In this document: in pieces, positions 39,522 to 47,844 of the stretch
How the letters are laid out: each line of letters starts with the position of its first letter
Numbering within the stretch: position 1 is the stretch's first letter
Assembly (NCBI RefSeq): GCF_000422725.1
Contig: NZ_AUGP01000018.1
Location: forward strand, 62,001-126,000
DNA length: 64,000 nucleotides
Source of the DNA: Flavobacterium subsaxonicum WB 4.1-42 = DSM 21790
GTDB lineage: Bacteria; Bacteroidota; Bacteroidia; Flavobacteriales; Flavobacteriaceae
Direction of reading: 5' to 3'
Made by a program: the position numbers and the translations under genes
The notes under the pieces: generated by a model
Seen by the model: the letters and a program-made list of their open reading frames with translations, nothing else
Told to the model about the DNA's origin: nothing
The model's database searches: none

Positions 39522-42371
39522 TTAGTTTTCCATGTAAGCCTCAATTGGCGCACAAGAGCAGATAAGGTTACGATCGCCGTAAGCGTCGTCTACCCTGCGT
39601 ACTCCAGGCCAGAATTTATTTTCGTGAAGATAATCCAGTGGGAATGCCGCTTTTTCGCGGGTGTAAGGTAATACCCAATTATCTGTAGTTAGCATGGCCA
39701 GTGTGTGCGGAGAATTTTTTAGCACGTTGTTTTTGTCATCGGCACTTGCCTCATCAATTTCTTTACGGATAGATATCATCGCATCGCAAAAACGGTCAAG
39801 TTCCTCAAGGTTTTCACTTTCGGTAGGCTCGATCATTAATGTACCCGCAACGGGGAATGATACTGTTGGCGCGTGGAAACCGTAGTCCATTAAACGCTTG
39901 GCAATATCAGTAACCTCGATACCATTCGCTTTAAACGGACGGCATTCTAATATCATTTCGTGGGCAGCACGGTTCATTTCGCCCGTGTATAGCGTGTCGT
40001 AATGACCTGCAAGCCTTTCTTTAATATAGTTAGCATTAAGTATAGCGTGGTGTGTAGAGCTGGTTAAGCCTTCTTCGCCAAGCATGGTAATATAACCGTA
40101 AGAGATTAGGCAAACTAATGCCGAACCCCAAGGGGCAGCAGAAATTGCTGTAATAGCGCTGTCGCCACCTGTAGTTATCACCGGGTTGGTAGGTAAAAAA
40201 GGTACAAGGTGTTTAGCCACGCAAATAGGGCCAACGCCAGGGCCACCACCACCGTGAGGTATAGCAAAGGTTTTGTGCAGGTTAAGGTGGCAAACATCGG
40301 CACCAATGTGGCCCGGGTTGGTTAAACCAACCTGTGCGTTCATGTTAGCACCGTCCATATAAACCTGTCCGCCATTTTCGTGTATAATTTTAATAACCTC
40401 TATAATAGAAGCCTCGTATACACCGTGGGTAGAAGGGTAGGTAACCATAAGGCAGGCAAGGTTATCTTTATGTAAGATAGCTTTAGCCCTTAGGTCTTCT
40501 ACATCAATATTTCCGTTTTCGGATGTTTTGGTAACCACAACCTCCATACCGGCCATGTGGGCAGTAGCAGGGTTAGTGCCGTGGGCCGAAGCCGGGATAA
40601 GTGCAATGTTACGGTGCTCCTGGCCAATAGATTTTTGGTAAGCACGTATAACCATAAGGCCGGCGTATTCGCCTTGTGCACCACTGTTTGGCTGTAGCGT
40701 AGTACCGGCAAAACCCGTAATAACGTTAAGTTGCTCTTCTAATTTTTTAAGCATTATCTGGTAACCTTCCGCCTGCTCAATTGGAGCAAATGGGTGAATG
40801 CTGTTCCAGTTAGGGTAGCTTAGCGGCAGCATCTCTGCCGCAGCGTTAAGCTTCATGGTGCACGATCCAAGCGATATCATAGAATGATTAAGGGCAAGGT
40901 CTAAACGTTCCAGTTTTTTAATGTAACGCATTAAAGCGGTTTCGCTGTGGTGCTTGTTAAACACATCGTGCTTAAGGAAATCTGATGTCCTGACCAAATT
41001 TTCAGGCAGGGCAACCGTTTCGGTAAGCGAGGTAACTTTTTCTGCAGATTTGCCGGTGGCCTCTGCAAAAACAGCAAGAATATCGTTAATATCTTTTATA
41101 GACGTGGTCTCGTTAAAAGAGATAGAAACCGTATCGGCATCTACGTAGTAAAAGTTAATTTCTTTAGCTTCGGCAGCAGCCTTAACTTTAGCAGCATCGG
41201 CTTTAACTAAAATCGTATCGAAGAACGATGTATTGGTTTGGTAAACGCCCAATTTGTTAAGCGCATCGGCCGTAGTAACGGCGCTTGCGTGTACTTTATC
41301 GGCAATGTACTGTAAGCCTTTAGGGCCGTGGTATACTGCATACATACCTGCCATTACAGCAAGCAATACCTGAGCCGTACAAATGTTAGAAGTAGCTTTT
41401 TCGCGTTTAATGTGCTGCTCGCGGGTTTGTAACGCCATGCGTAGCGCACGGTTACCGTTAACATCTATAGTAACGCCAATAATCCTGCCCGGCATAGAGC
41501 GCTTGTACTCTTCTTTAGTAGCAAAGAAAGCAGCGTGAGGCCCGCCGTAGCCCATTGGTATACCAAAACGCTGGGTAGTACCTACCACAACATCGGCACC
41601 CAATTCGCCCGGAGACGTTAGCTTAACAAGGCTTAAAATATCGGCGGCAACAGCAATTTTAATATCTTTTGCTTTTGCATTGGTTATAAACGATGCATAA
41701 TCGTGCACCTGGCCAAATTTGCCCGGGTACTGAAGTATAGCACCAAAAAATTCGTCAGAAAAATCAAACTCCTCATGGTTGCCTATAACAAGCTCAACAC
41801 CAATTGGCGTAGAACGTGTTTGAAGAACCGACAGGGTTTGCGGCAGTATCTCTTCAGATACAAAGAATTTAGCTACTTTGTTTTTCTTTTGGTCGCGGGT
41901 ACGAACATCAAACAAAAGTGCCATAGCCTCTGCAGCCGATGTACCTTCATCCAGCAACGATGCATTGGCAATTTCCATACCTGTAAGCTCAATAACCGTA
42001 GTCTGGTAGTTAAGCAGGGCTTCTAAACGGCCTTGTGCAATCTCTGCCTGGTAAGGCGTGTAGGCAGTGTACCATCCCGGGTTTTCGAAAATGTTACGCT
42101 GTATAGGTGCCGGTACAATAGCAGGGTGGTAGCCCAAACCAATGTACGACTTGTATATTTTGTTTTTGTTGCCTAACTGTGCTATGTGGTTAAGATACTC
42201 ATATTCAGTTAACGCAGGCTCAAGGTTTAAAGGGGCCTTAAGTCGGATGTCATCCGGTAGTGTTTCATATATCAATTGGTCGATAGAATCTACACCAATT
42301 GTTTTAAACATATGTTGGAGGTCATTCTCCCTCGGGCCAATATGCCTTAAAGCGAAAGCATCTGTTTTCAT
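39522..42371 (-). CDS. gcvP: Glycine dehydrogenase (decarboxylating), glycine cleavage P-protein
   Basis: 949 residues from ATG 42371; the frame to 42401 adds ten residues, and a -7-like box lies at 42401-42408, so the shorter start is preferred ('MKTDAFALRHIGPRENDLQ'). It decarboxylates glycine with PLP and passes the methylamine to the H-protein. This is the fused single-chain form. The PLP lysine lies in 'NLHKTFAIPHGGGGPG', preceded by 'GADVCHLNLHK', and 'GQVYMDGANMNAQVGL' precedes it. The other cleavage genes (gcvT, gcvH) are not here, so the system is scattered. No riboswitch could be recognised upstream. Confidence 0.96.
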   Translation of the reverse strand: MKTDAFALRHIGPRENDLQHMFKTIGVDSIDQLIYETLPDDIRLKAPLNLEPALTEYEYLNHIAQLGNKNKIYKSYIGLGYHPAIVPAPIQRNIFENPGWYTAYTPYQAEIAQGRLEALLNYQTTVIELTGMEIANASLLDEGTSAAEAMALLFDVRTRDQKKNKVAKFFVSEEILPQTLSVLQTRSTPIGVELVIGNHEEFDFSDEFFGAILQYPGKFGQVHDYASFITNAKAKDIKIAVAADILSLVKLTSPGELGADVVVGTTQRFGIPMGYGGPHAAFFATKEEYKRSMPGRIIGVTIDVNGNRALRMALQTREQHIKREKATSNICTAQVLLAVMAGMYAVYHGPKGLQYIADKVHASAVTTADALNKLGVYQTNTSFFDTILVKADAAKVKAAAEAKEINFYYVDADTVSISFNETTSIKDINDILAVFAEATGKSAEKVTSLTETVALPENLVRTSDFLKHDVFNKHHSETALMRYIKKLERLDLALNHSMISLGSCTMKLNAAAEMLPLSYPNWNSIHPFAPIEQAEGYQIMLKKLEEQLNVITGFAGTTLQPNSGAQGEYAGLMVIRAYQKSIGQEHRNIALIPASAHGTNPATAHMAGMEVVVTKTSENGNIDVEDLRAKAILHKDNLACLMVTYPSTHGVYEASIIEVIKIIHENGGQVYMDGANMNAQVGLTNPGHIGADVCHLNLHKTFAIPHGGGGPGVGPICVAKHLVPFLPTNPVITTGGDSAITAISAAPWGSALVCLISYGYITMLGEEGLTSSTHHAILNANYIKERLAGHYDTLYTGEMNRAAHEMILECRPFKANGIEVTDIAKRLMDYGFHAPTVSFPVAGTLMIEPTESENLEELDRFCDAMISIRKEIDEASADDKNNVLKNSPHTLAMLTTDNWVLPYTREKAAFPLDYLHENKFWPGVRRVDDAYGDRNLICSCAPIEAYMEN

Positions 42372-42400
42372 GTGTGTTGTGCTGTTGTTTTTTAAAGGCA

Positions 42401-42408
42401 CAAAATTA
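42401..42408 (-). promoter_or_regulatory. Possible -7 box for gcvP
   Basis: Minus strand reads TAATTTTG (TAnnTTTG), about 30 bases upstream of the chosen ATG. Confidence 0.35.
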
Positions 42409-42540: not shown

Positions 42541-43452
42541 TTATTGTTTTACAAGCTCTTTTAACGCTTTATCTGCAGTGCTGTATTCAAACAAAAAACC
42601 GCTTTGGGTTAGGCGTTTGGGTATAACGTTACGGCTTTTAAGCACCAGCTCGGGTTCGGTGCCAATAATTGCAGCGCCAAACGTTAACAACCCTATTGGG
42701 ATGTTGATGCCAATTGGTATCTTAACCGCCTGCCTCAGTGCCTTCATAAAGTCGGCGTTGCGAATAGGGGCAGGCGACACCACATTAACCGCACCCTCCA
42801 TTTTATGGCTGATGATAAACGCCACGGCGCGGGCAAAATCTTCTTCATGAATCCAGCTTACAAACTGGTTGCCGCTGCCCTGGCTTCCGCCGAAGCCTAA
42901 CTGGGCCAGCCTTTTAAGCGGAACAAATGCCCCGCCATCTTTACCCAGAACTATAGAGGTGCGCAATGCAGTTTGAAGCGTATTTGGCGTATCGGCCTCA
43001 AAAAAGGCGCGTTCCCACATTTTGGCAACATTCATCGAAAAGTCGTGGCCAATTTCTCCGGTAGCCTCATCCATCTGCTTATCGGTAGAGTGCCTGTAAA
43101 TGGTTGCGGTACTTGAGTTTAGCCAATGCTTGGGTGGATTGCTGCACGCATTTATGGCTTTGCCTATAATTACGGTGCTGTCAACCCGCGATGCCATGAT
43201 CTCGTTCTTATTGGTCTCGGTATACCTACAGTCTACCGACTTACCCGCCAGGTTTATCAACACATCGGCACCCTCCAGTTCGGCTTCCCACCCGGTAAGG
43301 GTTTTGGCATCCCAGTTAATGTACCTAACCCCATTCTTGGTAGCCGACTTGCCACGGGTTAGTACCACTATATCATCAATACTATCTTTAAAATGGTTTA
43401 TAAGTACGTTACCCAGAAAACCGGTTCCGGCAGCTATGATTATTTTTTTCAT
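42541..43452 (-). CDS. TIGR01777-type NAD(P)-dependent epimerase
   Basis: 303 residues. The Rossmann start 'KKIIIAAGTGFLGNVLINHF' and the family blocks 'GADVLINLAGKSVDCRYT', 'NSSTATIYRHSTDKQMDE', 'ALRTSIVLGKDGGAFVPL' and 'FVSWIHEEDFARAVAF' match the YfcH/TIGR01777 family (SDR type), whose substrate is unknown. The first Gly of the usual GxTG is Ala-Gly here ('AAGTGFLG'). It is the last gene of the run that begins with the GbsR/MarR regulator, but it also has its own 16-base palindrome 18 bases upstream. Confidence 0.88.
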   Translation of the reverse strand: MKKIIIAAGTGFLGNVLINHFKDSIDDIVVLTRGKSATKNGVRYINWDAKTLTGWEAELEGADVLINLAGKSVDCRYTETNKNEIMASRVDSTVIIGKAINACSNPPKHWLNSSTATIYRHSTDKQMDEATGEIGHDFSMNVAKMWERAFFEADTPNTLQTALRTSIVLGKDGGAFVPLKRLAQLGFGGSQGSGNQFVSWIHEEDFARAVAFIISHKMEGAVNVVSPAPIRNADFMKALRQAVKIPIGINIPIGLLTFGAAIIGTEPELVLKSRNVIPKRLTQSGFLFEYSTADKALKELVKQ

Positions 43453-43515: not shown

Positions 43516-44334
43516 TTAAAGACTTAAGATGAGTGCCAATGCAATTATACGATACAGAACCCATGTTAAGCATAAGTAGTGTGGTAATTCCAGAATTTTA
43601 ACCCTCCTGTAATGTTCTGTAAACATTAAGGCAGCGGTAAGGCCAAACCAACCCAATACTATTATTTGATGGAACGCTATAAATTGGGCAAGCAACAGCA
43701 TTGGCACCAGCAACAACGACCCCATTATCGATACCGTGATTAAATTGCCAAAGTAATTTATTGATATTTTGGTGTCTTTTTTAATGAAGAACATTCCCTG
43801 AAATGCTACCTGGCCGGCAGCAAGCAACAACTCGCGGTTAAAACTGCCCGCGGGCAGCATAGTAATTAACCCGGAATAGTTATAAAGTGCAAAGGCTGTA
43901 ACCAATGTGGCAAAAATAATATAGGCAATGCGGTAGCTGTAATTAAAATCGGGGACGCATTGCAGCGTAGCATTACTCTTTTTATTTGGTATGATTACTT
44001 TACGGTTGTACGATATAAACGAGTATAGTTTTTTAAGCATATAATGTACTGACTTAGTAGTGCCTATTTTTTCTATTATGGGAAAAGAGTTTCCTATAAC
44101 TTTTAAAAGGCTGTCTATGCCATAAGTTACCGTTTTATTGTGGTTGTCTACAAGGGCAATTTCGTTAGCTGCGCGTTGCACATCTACATACAGCATTTCG
44201 CTATTGGTTAACTGGGCATAGGGCTTACGACCGTTGGCGTCCAGCATTCCGGTTTTTATAAAGCCGGTGGTATACACGCTGCATAGCGGGCAGGCATCAT
44301 CATACAAAAGTGTTTGGTTGGCAAGGGTTTTCAT
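43516..44334 (-). CDS. DCC-type (DUF393) thiol oxidoreductase fused to a membrane domain
   Basis: 272 residues. The N-terminal 115 residues match the DCC/DUF393 fold: 'LLYDDACPLCSVY' supplies the D-x-x-C-x-x-C motif (Cys15 and Cys18), predicted to be a thiol-disulfide site. The C-terminal 150 residues contain four to five membrane helices ('IAYIIFATLVTAFALYNYSG' onwards). Redox reactions at the membrane are likely, with unknown substrate. Its ATG overlaps the stop of the preceding small membrane protein (4 bases), so it is translationally coupled within the putative regulon. Confidence 0.8.
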   Translation of the reverse strand: MKTLANQTLLYDDACPLCSVYTTGFIKTGMLDANGRKPYAQLTNSEMLYVDVQRAANEIALVDNHNKTVTYGIDSLLKVIGNSFPIIEKIGTTKSVHYMLKKLYSFISYNRKVIIPNKKSNATLQCVPDFNYSYRIAYIIFATLVTAFALYNYSGLITMLPAGSFNRELLLAAGQVAFQGMFFIKKDTKISINYFGNLITVSIMGSLLLVPMLLLAQFIAFHQIIVLGWFGLTAALMFTEHYRRVKILELPHYLCLTWVLYRIIALALILSL

Positions 44335-44702
44335 GATTCATGTTGGTTAAAATGTTGATTACTACGATAGGTTACATACACAAAATAGGCCGCAATACAC
44401 ATGGGTACCGGGAAAGCAATCACATTGGTAAGCCCCATATACAAAATATCGCTATAAATAGGATTTTGCAAAATTAATACTAAACAAATAAGATCTGATA
44501 TTGCCAAAAGCCAATATATAATTAGTAGCCATTGTAAAGATGGGGTTAGTACTTTATAGAACTTTACAGTGATTATTAATGCGATGATAAGCTGCACAGG
44601 CCCTAAAATTAATTGGAATAACATGCCTACACTGGGAGATAGGTATAACAGCACATTAAGGCTAAAAGCTATAGAATTTATTATGTGTAATATTCGTATC
44701 AT
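44331..44702 (-). CDS. Small four-helix membrane protein, paralogue 4
   Basis: 123 residues almost entirely of membrane helices, with 'YLSPSVGMLFQLILGPVQLI' and 'LLIIYWLLAISDLICLV'. It shares 'GML-Q', 'QLIIA-IIT-K', 'YWL' and 'FP-M-IA' with the neighbour at 44699-45100. No known domain. Start and stop overlap neighbours by 4 bases (ATGA) on both sides, showing a tight operon. Confidence 0.75.
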   Translation of the reverse strand: MIRILHIINSIAFSLNVLLYLSPSVGMLFQLILGPVQLIIALIITVKFYKVLTPSLQWLLIIYWLLAISDLICLVLILQNPIYSDILYMGLTNVIAFPVPMCIAAYFVYVTYRSNQHFNQHES

Positions 44703-45100
44703 CGTTTTATAAGTAAATATTTAGTAATAGAGAAAGTAGTATAGCCAGAATAAAAGGCAATGAACATTGGGAAGACAAACAATACAGAGCAAATAATTAT
44801 GCCCGGGAGTATCATAAAAAGATTATTTGAATATTTAAAGTCGTAATTTTTTGCTATTGCTGCTCCTATACAAAGAGCTACAATTAAAATAAATGCAGTG
44901 AGCACCATAAGCCAGTATTTTTTTAGCATTGCCCTGTGTTTATTGTCCAGTTGGGTTTTATACTTACTGGTTATAATGCTTGCTATTATTAATTGTATAA
45001 TAGCTAAAGGTATTTGTAATAGCATCCCGAAATAAGGAATAATATATACTACGGTTGTTAAACCCAATGCGACTACGTTTATTTGATGGATACGTTTCAT
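44699..45100 (-). CDS. Small four-helix membrane protein, paralogue 3
   Basis: 133 residues, four predicted membrane segments ('LGLTTVVYIIPYFGML', 'IPLAIIQLIIASIIT', 'YWLMVLTAFILIVALCIG', 'FMILPGIIICSVLFVFPM'). It clearly resembles paralogue 4 (same order of P-x-x-GML, QLIIA-IIT-K and YWL motifs) and more weakly paralogues 1 and 2. Function unknown. ATGA overlaps with both neighbours. Confidence 0.75.
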   Translation of the reverse strand: MKRIHQINVVALGLTTVVYIIPYFGMLLQIPLAIIQLIIASIITSKYKTQLDNKHRAMLKKYWLMVLTAFILIVALCIGAAIAKNYDFKYSNNLFMILPGIIICSVLFVFPMFIAFYSGYTTFSITKYLLIKR

Positions 45101-45420
45101 AGCTTCTCCAGCTTTGCTTTAATAAATAGTAAAACAGACATATAGGTTGCTAAAATTGGTGGCATGTACACAACGTTTTCCCAATTGGTTATTATCCAAA
45201 GTATAAAGAATAGTGCTACTCCCAGTAAGTAAATAAGGTATATAGGTTTGCCATTAGTTTCTATGCATAGGCCAATACCCACAACTATATGAAAAGCACC
45301 GGTAACCATTGTAAGCAGCGCTCCTATCATCCAGACAGACGATGCAAATAGCCACCCTGCAAGCAGCAGGATAGGCGGTATGCCGGTTATAAAATAGTTC
45401 ATTCGGTTAATGTTTTTCAT
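45097..45420 (-). CDS. Small four-helix membrane protein, paralogue 2
   Basis: 107 residues. Shared with paralogue 1: 'TGA' after helix 2, 'LFFILW' in helix 3 and 'PP-LA-Y' in helix 4 ('VALFFILWIITNWENV', 'MPPILATYMSVLLF'). No signal peptide separate from helix 1. An inverted repeat of the regulon (45437-45454) lies 17 bases upstream, so it can start its own transcript and drive paralogues 3 and 4 and the DCC gene. Confidence 0.75.
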   Translation of the reverse strand: MKNINRMNYFITGIPPILLLAGWLFASSVWMIGALLTMVTGAFHIVVGIGLCIETNGKPIYLIYLLGVALFFILWIITNWENVVYMPPILATYMSVLLFIKAKLEKL

Positions 45421-45436: not shown

Positions 45437-45454
45437 TTTCAGAAAAAAATGAAA
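45437..45454 (-). promoter_or_regulatory. Putative GbsR/MarR operator, copy 3
   Basis: TTTCA-N8-TGAAA preceded by AC on the plus strand, 17 bases upstream of paralogue 2. Same geometry as the copies at 45849 and 46416. Confidence 0.6.
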
Positions 45455-45493
45455 CATTTTTATGCTTTTATATCTGTGAATTAGTTAGGTTAA

Positions 45494-45829
45494 TTAAACT
45501 TTAGGCTGGAGTGTTTTTTCTTTTTGCCTTTCAATATAAATAATATAGGTAAGGTACAGGGCCAATGCAGGTGGCAGTGCAAAGATGTAAAAATTGGTGC
45601 CTAAAAATTCCCACAGTATAAAGAACAAGCCCGTTATAGCAAAGTAAATGTATAATAAATTACTGCTGTGCTTAGAGAGCATAAACAGTGCAATAATTAC
45701 CTGTACAGCACCCGTAACAATCGAGGCAAGTGCGGCGTGAATTAAATACTCTTCATCCGTAAGGCCTAAAAGGCCGAATAAGATAGGGCCAATAACTACA
45801 ATAAAATTAATAATGCTCGCTGCTTTCAT
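45494..45829 (-). CDS. Small four-helix membrane protein, paralogue 1
   Basis: 111 residues: helices at 'IINFIVVIGPILFGLLGL', 'LASIVTGAVQVIIALFML', 'YIYFAITGLFFILWEFLG' and 'IFALPPALALYLTYIIYI', then a short basic tail. It resembles paralogue 2 closely (VTGA, LFFILW, PP-LA-Y). It follows the regulator gene by 54 bases, with an inverted repeat 20 bases upstream that overlaps a -7 box. Function unknown; an envelope role is inferred from the redox and epimerase neighbours. Confidence 0.75.
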   Translation of the reverse strand: MKAASIINFIVVIGPILFGLLGLTDEEYLIHAALASIVTGAVQVIIALFMLSKHSSNLLYIYFAITGLFFILWEFLGTNFYIFALPPALALYLTYIIYIERQKEKTLQPKV

Positions 45830-45848
45830 GGTTGGGAGGTCTTTAAAC

Positions 45849-45866
45849 TTTCAAAAATAATTGAAA
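45849..45866 (-). promoter_or_regulatory. Putative GbsR/MarR operator, copy 2, overlapping a -7 box
   Basis: TTTCA-N8-TGAAA, 20 bases upstream of paralogue 1. On the minus strand the box TATTTTTG (45852-45859) lies within it, so a bound protein would block transcription. Confidence 0.65.
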
Positions 45867-45883
45867 TATACAGATAAATTTTT

Positions 45884-46387
45884 TTACTTCATAATTTTAA
45901 CCACCAGCCTTGCCAGCCAGTTGTCTTTAAATTCGGTTACTTTTTCCAGCATATTATCGGCTTTAAGTACAAAGTCGTACAGCTTGGTGGTTTGCTCTGT
46001 AAAATGTTTGGCTTCTGCCGATGTGCCCCCAACCGATGTAGATACTTCTTTTAGCACCTTAAGTGCCGGTTTAATTTCGCGTTTGCTGCGTTCCTGGGCA
46101 ATTTTAACGGCCAGTTCGTCCAGGTCTTTTTCCGATGTAAAAAACTCACGTCGTTCGCCGGGCTTATACTCTTTGTAAATAATACCCCAATCCATTAAAG
46201 CCCTAAGGTTCATGCTGGCATTGCCGCGCGATATTTGCAGCTCTTCCATAATGTCTTCCATGCTCAGTGGCTCGGGTGCTATCATAAGCAGGGCGTGTAT
46301 CTGGGCCATCGTTTTATTTATGCCCCATTGCGAACCCAGTGCCCCCCAAGTTTGTACAAACTTATTTTTTGCTTCGCTAAATTCCAT
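45884..46387 (-). CDS. GbsR/MarR-family transcriptional regulator
   Basis: 167 residues. A winged-helix DNA-binding domain is visible: 'INKTMAQIHALLMIAPEPLS', recognition helix 'EELQISRGNASMNLRALM', and wing 'YKEYKPGERREFFTSE'. The C-terminal 70 residues form a helical coiled-coil-like dimer region ('KLYDFVLKADNMLEKVTEF'). GbsR-type proteins usually repress their own or neighbouring operons. Here the same inverted repeat is found upstream of this gene and of two following membrane genes, so autoregulation is likely. Ligand unknown. Confidence 0.88.
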   Translation of the reverse strand: MEFSEAKNKFVQTWGALGSQWGINKTMAQIHALLMIAPEPLSMEDIMEELQISRGNASMNLRALMDWGIIYKEYKPGERREFFTSEKDLDELAVKIAQERSKREIKPALKVLKEVSTSVGGTSAEAKHFTEQTTKLYDFVLKADNMLEKVTEFKDNWLARLVVKIMK

Positions 46388-46415
46388 ACATCAAATGTAT
46401 AACATCTTATTGAAC

Positions 46416-46433
46416 TTTCAAAAATAAATGAAA
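46416..46433 (-). promoter_or_regulatory. Putative GbsR/MarR operator, copy 1, overlapping a -7 box
   Basis: TTTCA-N8-TGAAA, 29 bases upstream of the regulator start. The minus-strand box TATTTTTG (46419-46426) lies inside it, as in copy 2, which fits self-repression. Confidence 0.65.
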
Positions 46434-47082: not shown

Positions 47083-47844
47083 TTATATCCAGCCGTTTAC
47101 AATTGATTTTTTGATCATTTCTGACACCGACTTAGAGTTAGTTTTTTCCAGCAGGTGCTTTCGGTGCGAGTCTACAGTATATTTAGAAATGTTGAGGCGG
47201 CAGCTTATCTCTTTACTTATAAGGCCTTCGAGCATTAGTTTGAGCACCTGCTTTTCTCTTGGCGATAAAATACCTTTAGAAGGCTTGTAGACCGATTTTA
47301 CCACAACATCAAAAAAGCTGGGGCCATCATCGAGCGCCACAAAAGAGAGCATGGGCCGGTTGTCTTTTTTAAGGTGGGTAATGTTGGCATTTACACCAAA
47401 GGTAAGTATGGTGTTGCTGGCCTTATTGTAGCCTACTACTATCATTTGATTGAGTATACGCACATAGTGCCCCTTGGCATGCAGCACCCTGAAATCGTAT
47501 TGCAACTTGTAATTAAAACGTTCGCGGTAATGCATAGGCCTGAAAAAGTCGGCAATGGCTACCTCAAAATTAAGAATGTGGGCTTTGTCTTCTTCATGTA
47601 TCAGGTCGAACATTAGTGGGAAATCAAAATCATCGGCATCATAGCCCAGCACGTTTTTTACTTCGGGGCTAATCATTTCAAAGCGCGATTCTTTAATGTT
47701 AAGTATCCAGTAAAAGCTTGGCCCGGGCTGAAAACTCAGTAAATACCTTTTGTGGGCTTCGATCTCTATGGCATGGTCTTCCCAGTTATCATTAGATACT
47801 TTTTCGTGAATTAATTGTAGTTGTTGGATGTAAGGTGCTTTCAT
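47083..47844 (-). CDS. PAS-LuxR family transcriptional regulator
   Basis: 253 residues. The N-terminal 170 residues carry a PAS-like sensor: 'SFYWILNIKESRFEMISPEV' and 'VLGYDADDF', then 'FPLMFDLIHEEDKAHILNFE' and 'YDFRVLHAKGHYVRIL'. The C-terminal 65 residues form the LuxR helix-turn-helix: 'LSPREKQVLKLMLEGLISKE', 'LNISKYTVDSHRKHLLEKTN' and 'SVSEM'. No receiver domain, so it senses directly. It is flanked by long non-coding DNA and terminators, alone in its unit; target genes are unknown. No promoter box was recognised. Confidence 0.88.
   Translation of the reverse strand: MKAPYIQQLQLIHEKVSNDNWEDHAIEIEAHKRYLLSFQPGPSFYWILNIKESRFEMISPEVKNVLGYDADDFDFPLMFDLIHEEDKAHILNFEVAIADFFRPMHYRERFNYKLQYDFRVLHAKGHYVRILNQMIVVGYNKASNTILTFGVNANITHLKKDNRPMLSFVALDDGPSFFDVVVKSVYKPSKGILSPREKQVLKLMLEGLISKEISCRLNISKYTVDSHRKHLLEKTNSKSVSEMIKKSIVNGWI

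Follow-up and report, generated by a model that had tools for sequence, protein, structure and literature searches.

The described system that lies closest to the locus reported here is that of the GbsR-type repressor CydE from Alishewanella sp. WH16-1, which is reportedly only 18.8% similar to GbsR of Bacillus subtilis and which represses and binds the cydE promoter (cytochrome bd operon), footprints and mobility shifts having been obtained with TATTTCAGAAATTTCTGAAAGTTCA (PMC6096048). Within the available portion of that paper, CydE differs from the protein considered here in its target, cytochrome bd, in its binding to a second, unrelated sequence, and in its reported derepression by sulfate (PMC6096048). 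Another GbsR-type protein, CioR of Chromobacterium violaceum, represses its own operon; its target is again cytochrome bd, unlike the membrane genes found here, and the available text gives no binding-site sequence (PMC11837568). GbsR and OpcR of B. subtilis belong to the same MarR-repressor subfamily, and GbsR is reported to work at gbsAB as a roadblock that lies past the start (PMC7396694). As far as the accessible text goes, however, B. subtilis GbsR recognizes an AT-rich inverted repeat whose half-sites are 4 bp apart, in contrast to the 8-base spacer described below, and its targets are genes for choline and glycine betaine, of which none was recognized at the present locus (PMC7396694). 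A survey has found GbsR-type genes in Bacteroidetes, with no consistent picture emerging from their neighbourhoods in the part of the survey available, and we here propose an operator and recurrent neighbour families as candidates for this group, which probably includes the regulator group studied here (PMC6207618). The closest solved structure by sequence is that of Mj223 from Methanocaldococcus jannaschii (PDB 1ku9; E 2.4e-17 with a profile), described as a protein of unknown function with an unknown operator. In the open-licence literature, the repeat motif described below was found only in the CydE paper (PMC6096048), and nothing was found on GbsR in Flavobacterium or on autoregulated flavobacterial MarR operators.

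The DNA analysed here is a stretch of 64,000 nucleotides from Flavobacterium subsaxonicum (the window), in which an operon on the minus strand extends from 46387 to about 42541, with a regulator gene in first position followed by membrane genes, all of them presumably transcribed together. The regulator (167 aa; 45884..46387, minus strand) is a GbsR/MarR-type protein. It scores 33.2 bits against Pfam MarR_2 (cut-off 27), which identifies a winged helix-turn-helix of the MarR kind, and its residues 4–142 are matched by sequence to Mj223 (1ku9, E 2e-15), in keeping with an Mj223-like architecture; no second copy was detected in the genome at E 0.001. Its score of 50.7 bits against the choline-linked equivalog CudC (NCBIfam NF047500) lies far below the cut-off of 218, and among the downstream genes of the window none was recognized as a gene for choline or glycine betaine or for Opu transport.

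The following genes, all on the minus strand, encode a small membrane protein of 111 aa with four hydrophobic stretches (45494..45829), a paralogue with 32% identity to the product of the next gene, and a small membrane protein of 107 aa (45097..45420), for which a confident four-helix model (mean pLDDT 91.5) gave no PDB match below E 0.8. Two further small membrane proteins, of 133 aa (44699..45100, its start overlapping the stop of the 107-aa gene) and 123 aa (44331..44702), are paralogues of each other (33%). Neighbouring membrane genes within 44331–45100 share 4-base start/stop overlaps and, with their 33% identity, look like tandem duplicates. Next come a DCC1-like protein of 272 aa (43516..44334), which remains below the Pfam cut-off (22.3 of 27.8 bits), and a TIGR01777-family oxidoreductase of 303 aa from the NAD-dependent epimerase family (42541..43452; 264 bits, cut-off 207), whose gene is probably the last of the operon. 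The operon is adjoined by a large gene (39522–42401), which we take, by eye, to encode glycine dehydrogenase; between operon and large gene, many of the loci L044–L122 carry a gene of roughly 270 aa on the opposite strand, without Pfam match. A regulator of the PAS plus LuxR type is encoded at 47083–47844, upstream of the operon and in the same orientation.

The inverted repeat TTTCA-N8-TGAAA occurs in the window exactly three times, each time after AC: at 46416–46433 (TTTCATTTATTTTTGAAA, hereinafter O1), upstream of the regulator; at 45849–45866 (TTTCAATTATTTTTGAAA, the middle copy), 17 bases past the regulator stop and before the 111-aa membrane gene; and at 45437–45454 (TTTCATTTTTTTCTGAAA, the third copy), all read on the minus strand. 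The three positions, the 8-base spacing, the preceding AC and the distances of 29, 20 and 17 bases to the gene starts had been given in a preliminary description of the locus, and all were borne out, the distances being coordinate differences to the start codons that leave 28, 19 and 16 bases in between. The number of copies expected by chance in the window is 0.08, and none of 100 shuffles contained at least three. Across the 4.64-Mb genome, the bare repeat was found at 11 places, as compared with 16 for a reversed control, so that without enrichment the bare repeat by itself says nothing. The extended form, AACTTTCANAAANAANTGAAA, had three perfect matches in the same 4.64 Mb, all of them at the locus, the next best having 2 mismatches. 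The doubt attached earlier to the repeat, that it might occur genome-wide at random frequency, applies to the bare form. A remote, genome-wide regulon was considered and rejected, since the bare repeat is at background and the extended sites away from the locus in same-genus genomes are isolated and equally frequent in genomes without the regulator.

In the window, O1 is followed directly by GTTCA, and the site of CydE, TATTTCAGAAATTTCTGAAAGTTCA, likewise contains TTTCA-GAAATTTC-TGAAA-GTTCA, although the available text on CydE, unlike the arrangement in the window, mentions no operator 3' of the regulator gene (PMC6096048). The window thus has TTTCA-N8-TGAAA, as in the operator of CydE, in the promoter of the regulator itself. 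Since the CydE footprint contains the repeat, the adjacent regulator is its likely binder, and as an operator the sequence has a precedent.

Conservation was followed in a close set, consisting of the best 80 of 577 confirmed relatives from a genome scan, nearly all of them named Flavobacterium. Within these best 80, the exact repeat precedes the regulator in 79 and follows it in all 80; the sole close relative lacking an exact upstream repeat (L069) has a 7-base spacer. Both sites are present in L079, which comes from a strain of F. johnsoniae. The second copy starts at most 107 bases past the regulator stop in 78 of the best 80, the other two being L044 (696 bases) and L045 (416 bases). The information content in the close relatives is near maximal over the arms of O1 and falls to background beyond about 9 bases upstream of it, and the fuller consensus reads AAAC-TTTCA-N8-TGAAA-GTTTAAAA.

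A distant set was assembled from 40 same-order loci, the order-level locus L224, and 40 loci spread over the families of the class. It samples 41 of 83 matching genomes at the former level and, chosen by hand, about one locus per family from 128 genomes at the latter, one genome being sampled twice in the class-wide 40. Exclusion from the order-level counts of L209, which lies at a contig end and has a misplaced reading frame, left 80 distant regulators, for which identity to the query was mostly 42–57%, with extremes of 33% and 70%. O1 was exact in 71 of these 80 Bacteroidia regulators and missing in exact form from 9, and an exact internal copy was present within 200 bases in 59 and missing from 21; dinucleotide shuffles of the same stretches gave means of only 0.155 for O1 (maximum, 1) and 0.16 for the internal site (maximum, 2). 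Conservation beside homologous regulators, for which the preliminary description had suggested a search in relatives, is therefore strong both in the close set (79/80) and in the distant one (71/80). Among the 41 loci L224–L264, regulators with at least 45% identity had O1 in 29/33 and the internal copy in 22/33 cases, and those below 45% in 4/8 and 1/8. When 12 of 13 weak paralogue matches were fetched, namely, remoter GbsR/MarR-like proteins of 23–32% identity, the exact site was found in none of the 12 stretches and a one-mismatch site in 5, at varied places. Collectively, the shuffle-controlled conservation and the CydE footprint make it very likely that the repeat is the operator of the regulator.

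These data also bear on the notion that the repeat is a product of chance in AT-rich DNA or forms an RNA hairpin instead of a protein site. The background frequency of the bare repeat genome-wide would be consistent with it; the shuffle controls, both in the window and in the distant loci, speak against it, as does the constancy of the arms, which are unchanged letter for letter even in O1 of L193 with its G/C-rich surroundings (TTTCAGTGCGAGCTGAAA), where the base pairs of an RNA stem could have been exchanged freely. We regard this explanation as having a practically negligible probability.

The regulator and the site also occur together. Among 25 same-genus genomes, the regulator is present in 12, and each of these carries near-exact extended sites at it, 11 of them two such sites and the genome of the window one at this stringency; the 13 genomes without the regulator showed isolated matches in two and a pair in none. 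In 15 genomes of other families, the regulator was present in three and a near-exact extended site at the regulator only in G028. For 299 genomes of the same family, a hand count gave a near-exact extended site in 55 of 59 genomes with the regulator as against 29 of 240 without it, where a match may lie anywhere in the genome and not always beside the regulator (that listed for G893 is elsewhere). The reversed control pattern matched about 60 of the 299 (also by hand count), so single matches are to be expected by chance. It follows from the co-occurrence with the regulator, together with the location of the site at the regulator's own promoter, its absence in exact form from the 12 paralogue stretches and the CydE footprint, that recognition of the repeat by a DNA-binding protein other than the adjacent regulator is highly improbable.

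In this phylum, the –33 element of promoters reads TTG or TTTG. A predicted –33 element (TTTG; 46419..46422, minus strand) lies inside the right arm of O1, where a conserved T gives TTG, and a predicted –7 box, TACATTTG (46392..46399, minus strand), lies 19 bases past its G. A TAnnTTTG box has been located at –12 to –5 in F. psychrophilum (PMC9723704). Because only 4 bases separate the box from the ATG, transcription is predicted to start at 46387, on the A of the regulator ATG, giving a leaderless message; in F. psychrophilum, 5.5% of the examined mRNAs are leaderless (PMC9723704). This geometry is widely kept. In 81 close loci (the best 80 of 577 plus the window, L069 being included with the spacer relaxed), TAnnTTT[GA] is present downstream of the TTG of O1 (TTTG in 78) in 81, at 19–20 bases in 80, and the gap between box and ATG is exactly 4 bases in 60. 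The order-level set has the TAnnTTT[GA] box downstream of O1 in 33/38 (4-base gap in 14) and the class-wide set a slightly relaxed box in 28/33 (4-base gap in 20). In eight loci (L061, L081, L083, L084, L090, L092, L096 and L116), a similar stretch of 54–64 bases lies between –7 box and start codon, forming a long leader, and the N-terminus of the regulator begins with MKF, not MEF.

The preliminary description had placed a –7 box inside the first two repeats, at TATTTTTG, and had supposed three promoters, with transcription blocked by the bound regulator. As letters, TATTTTTG is indeed present on the minus strand inside O1 (46426–46419) and the middle copy (45859–45852), that is, in two of the three repeats, being absent from the third, and TAnnTTTG occurs inside O1 in 48 of the 81 close loci. 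As a promoter box, however, it did not withstand the comparison with relatives: it is missing from O1 in 33/81 close loci and in all 38 order-level loci, in contrast to the downstream box (81/81 and 33/38), and no TTG is found in the 28 bases upstream of either inside box in the window. A –7 box within the repeat was thus rejected on conservation, and a promoter of this kind in each of the three repeats is very unlikely. Since the inside box is poorly kept and the downstream box is conserved, the repeat most likely covers the –33 element, so that by analogy O1 would block transcription much as OpcR, whose site lies over –35 according to the available text, does in B. subtilis (PMC7396694).

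The internal copies are different in this respect. In the close relatives (best 80 of 577), no TAnnTTTG was found in the 60 bases upstream or the 40 bases downstream of any of 82 internal copies, and only 1 of 82 has it inside, as does the middle copy of the window; between that middle copy and 44476 no TAnnTTTG was found, hence none near the third copy. The scan was keyed on TAnnTTTG, which an unconventional promoter would escape. The claim of one promoter per repeat is thus supported neither by the internal copies of the relatives nor by the third copy, which lacks TATTTTTG. The difference is also visible in the last base of the spacer, counted here with the window excluded. In the close relatives (best 80 of 577), this base is C in 80/82 internal copies and T in 79/79 O1 sites; with the order-level loci added, it is T, giving TTG, in 112/117 O1 sites as against 14/118 internal ones. 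A C at this position in the internal copies removes the TTG. In more distant loci the CTG signature of the internal sites becomes weaker (23/36 at order level and 12/23 class-wide), and in the class-wide set the base is T in 28/33 O1 sites and 11/23 internal copies.

In the window, the third copy, of the C type and without TTG, agrees in every letter with the internal operator most often seen in close relatives, and it probably represents the ancestral internal operator. The middle copy, of the T type, fronts an extra, related membrane gene carried by this lineage between the regulator and the third operator, and there may be a weak promoter at this copy, which contains TATTTTTG. The 107-aa protein shares 49% identity with the product of the gene next behind the internal operator in L046 but only 19% with that of the gene behind the operator in the nearer relative L045, so that the orthology of these genes is uncertain. 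In L044 and L045, too, regulator and operator are separated by extra genes, no middle copy being present, and L070 and L112 have two internal copies each. An A-tract, AAAAAAATTT (45876..45885, minus strand), lies just before the middle operator, overlapping the regulator stop codon, and is kept in close relatives some 20 bases ahead of the internal operator. By eye, the A-tract stays beside the operator also in relatives with a longer gap to the regulator, and some relatives have a T-tract instead.

It is conceivable, although we consider it rather unlikely, that the internal copies own unrecognized promoters, dependent on an alternative sigma factor or on activation by the same protein, from which the membrane genes would be expressed separately. 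The conserved A-tract resembles an upstream promoter element in its position, and the nearly invariant C at the last spacer base would not be needed for dimer binding alone. Against this stand the absence of TAnnTTTG around the 82 internal copies and the observation, by eye, that the gene start often lies within about 25 bases of the internal repeat, leaving little room for a start site. Alternatively, the protein might bridge O1 and the internal copy and so loop out the regulator gene, which the two sites flank at 558–711 bases from each other where both are found close by. Their distances show no helical phasing (vector length, 0.02–0.10 at a period of 10.5), a test that matters little at such length, and on balance we think a loop improbable.

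Several gene families recur beside the regulator: small membrane proteins of the 107/111-aa kind, DCC1-like, TIGR01777 and DUF2071 proteins, a pair of small membrane proteins, one of which is weakly DUF4149-like (below the cut-off), a methyltransferase with an additional match to the cyclopropane synthase family, a fatty-acid desaturase, and a family of 150 aa that matches nothing in Pfam. With profiles built from close relatives, 61 of the 80 distant regulators were seen to have at least one target family downstream, and the other 19 had none (hand count). Among L224–L264, the internal copy is present in 19/24 loci with a recognized target family as against 4/17 without one (p 0.001, for a target list compiled by hand and related loci that are not independent). 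L193, which keeps O1, has no internal copy and no recognized target genes, and the similar locus L194 has no site. The theme common to these target genes suggests an adjustment of the membrane or its lipids. Nothing was found in the open-licence literature on DUF2071 with DUF393 or on TIGR01777 with Flavobacterium operons.

We consider it probable, with good confidence, that the repeat is the operator of the adjacent GbsR/MarR-type protein, which would block the –33 element at O1 and act as a roadblock further in. A protein dimer on O1 would sit over the –33 element of the only conserved promoter detected and thereby shut off the regulator together with the operon, the internal copies, at which relatives showed no promoter of this type, would act as roadblocks before the membrane genes, and repression would presumably be released by a ligand. 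The roadblock role is the least certain of these steps. Of the self-regulated regulon with internal promoters that had been suggested before, the autoregulated local regulon is upheld by the conservation, the co-occurrence and the CydE precedent, and the internal promoters are not. More tentatively, and with rather less than even confidence, the arrangement may represent an ancient, class-wide switch with two locks, that is, a block at –33 of a leaderless promoter and then a stop at a promoterless operator. If so, a single T to C change would turn a promoter-operator into a pure roadblock, and the second lock would front modular membrane and lipid-related genes.

For the Bacteroidetes branch of GbsR proteins, these results provide a predicted operator, a promoter position and recurrent neighbour families. 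Alishewanella, the host of CydE, presumably belongs to a phylum different from that of the window, and the likeness of the sites suggests a CydE-type operator common to different phyla. Moreover, the near-identical promoter and promoterless operators would constitute a natural system in which steric block and roadblock may be compared with one and the same repressor.
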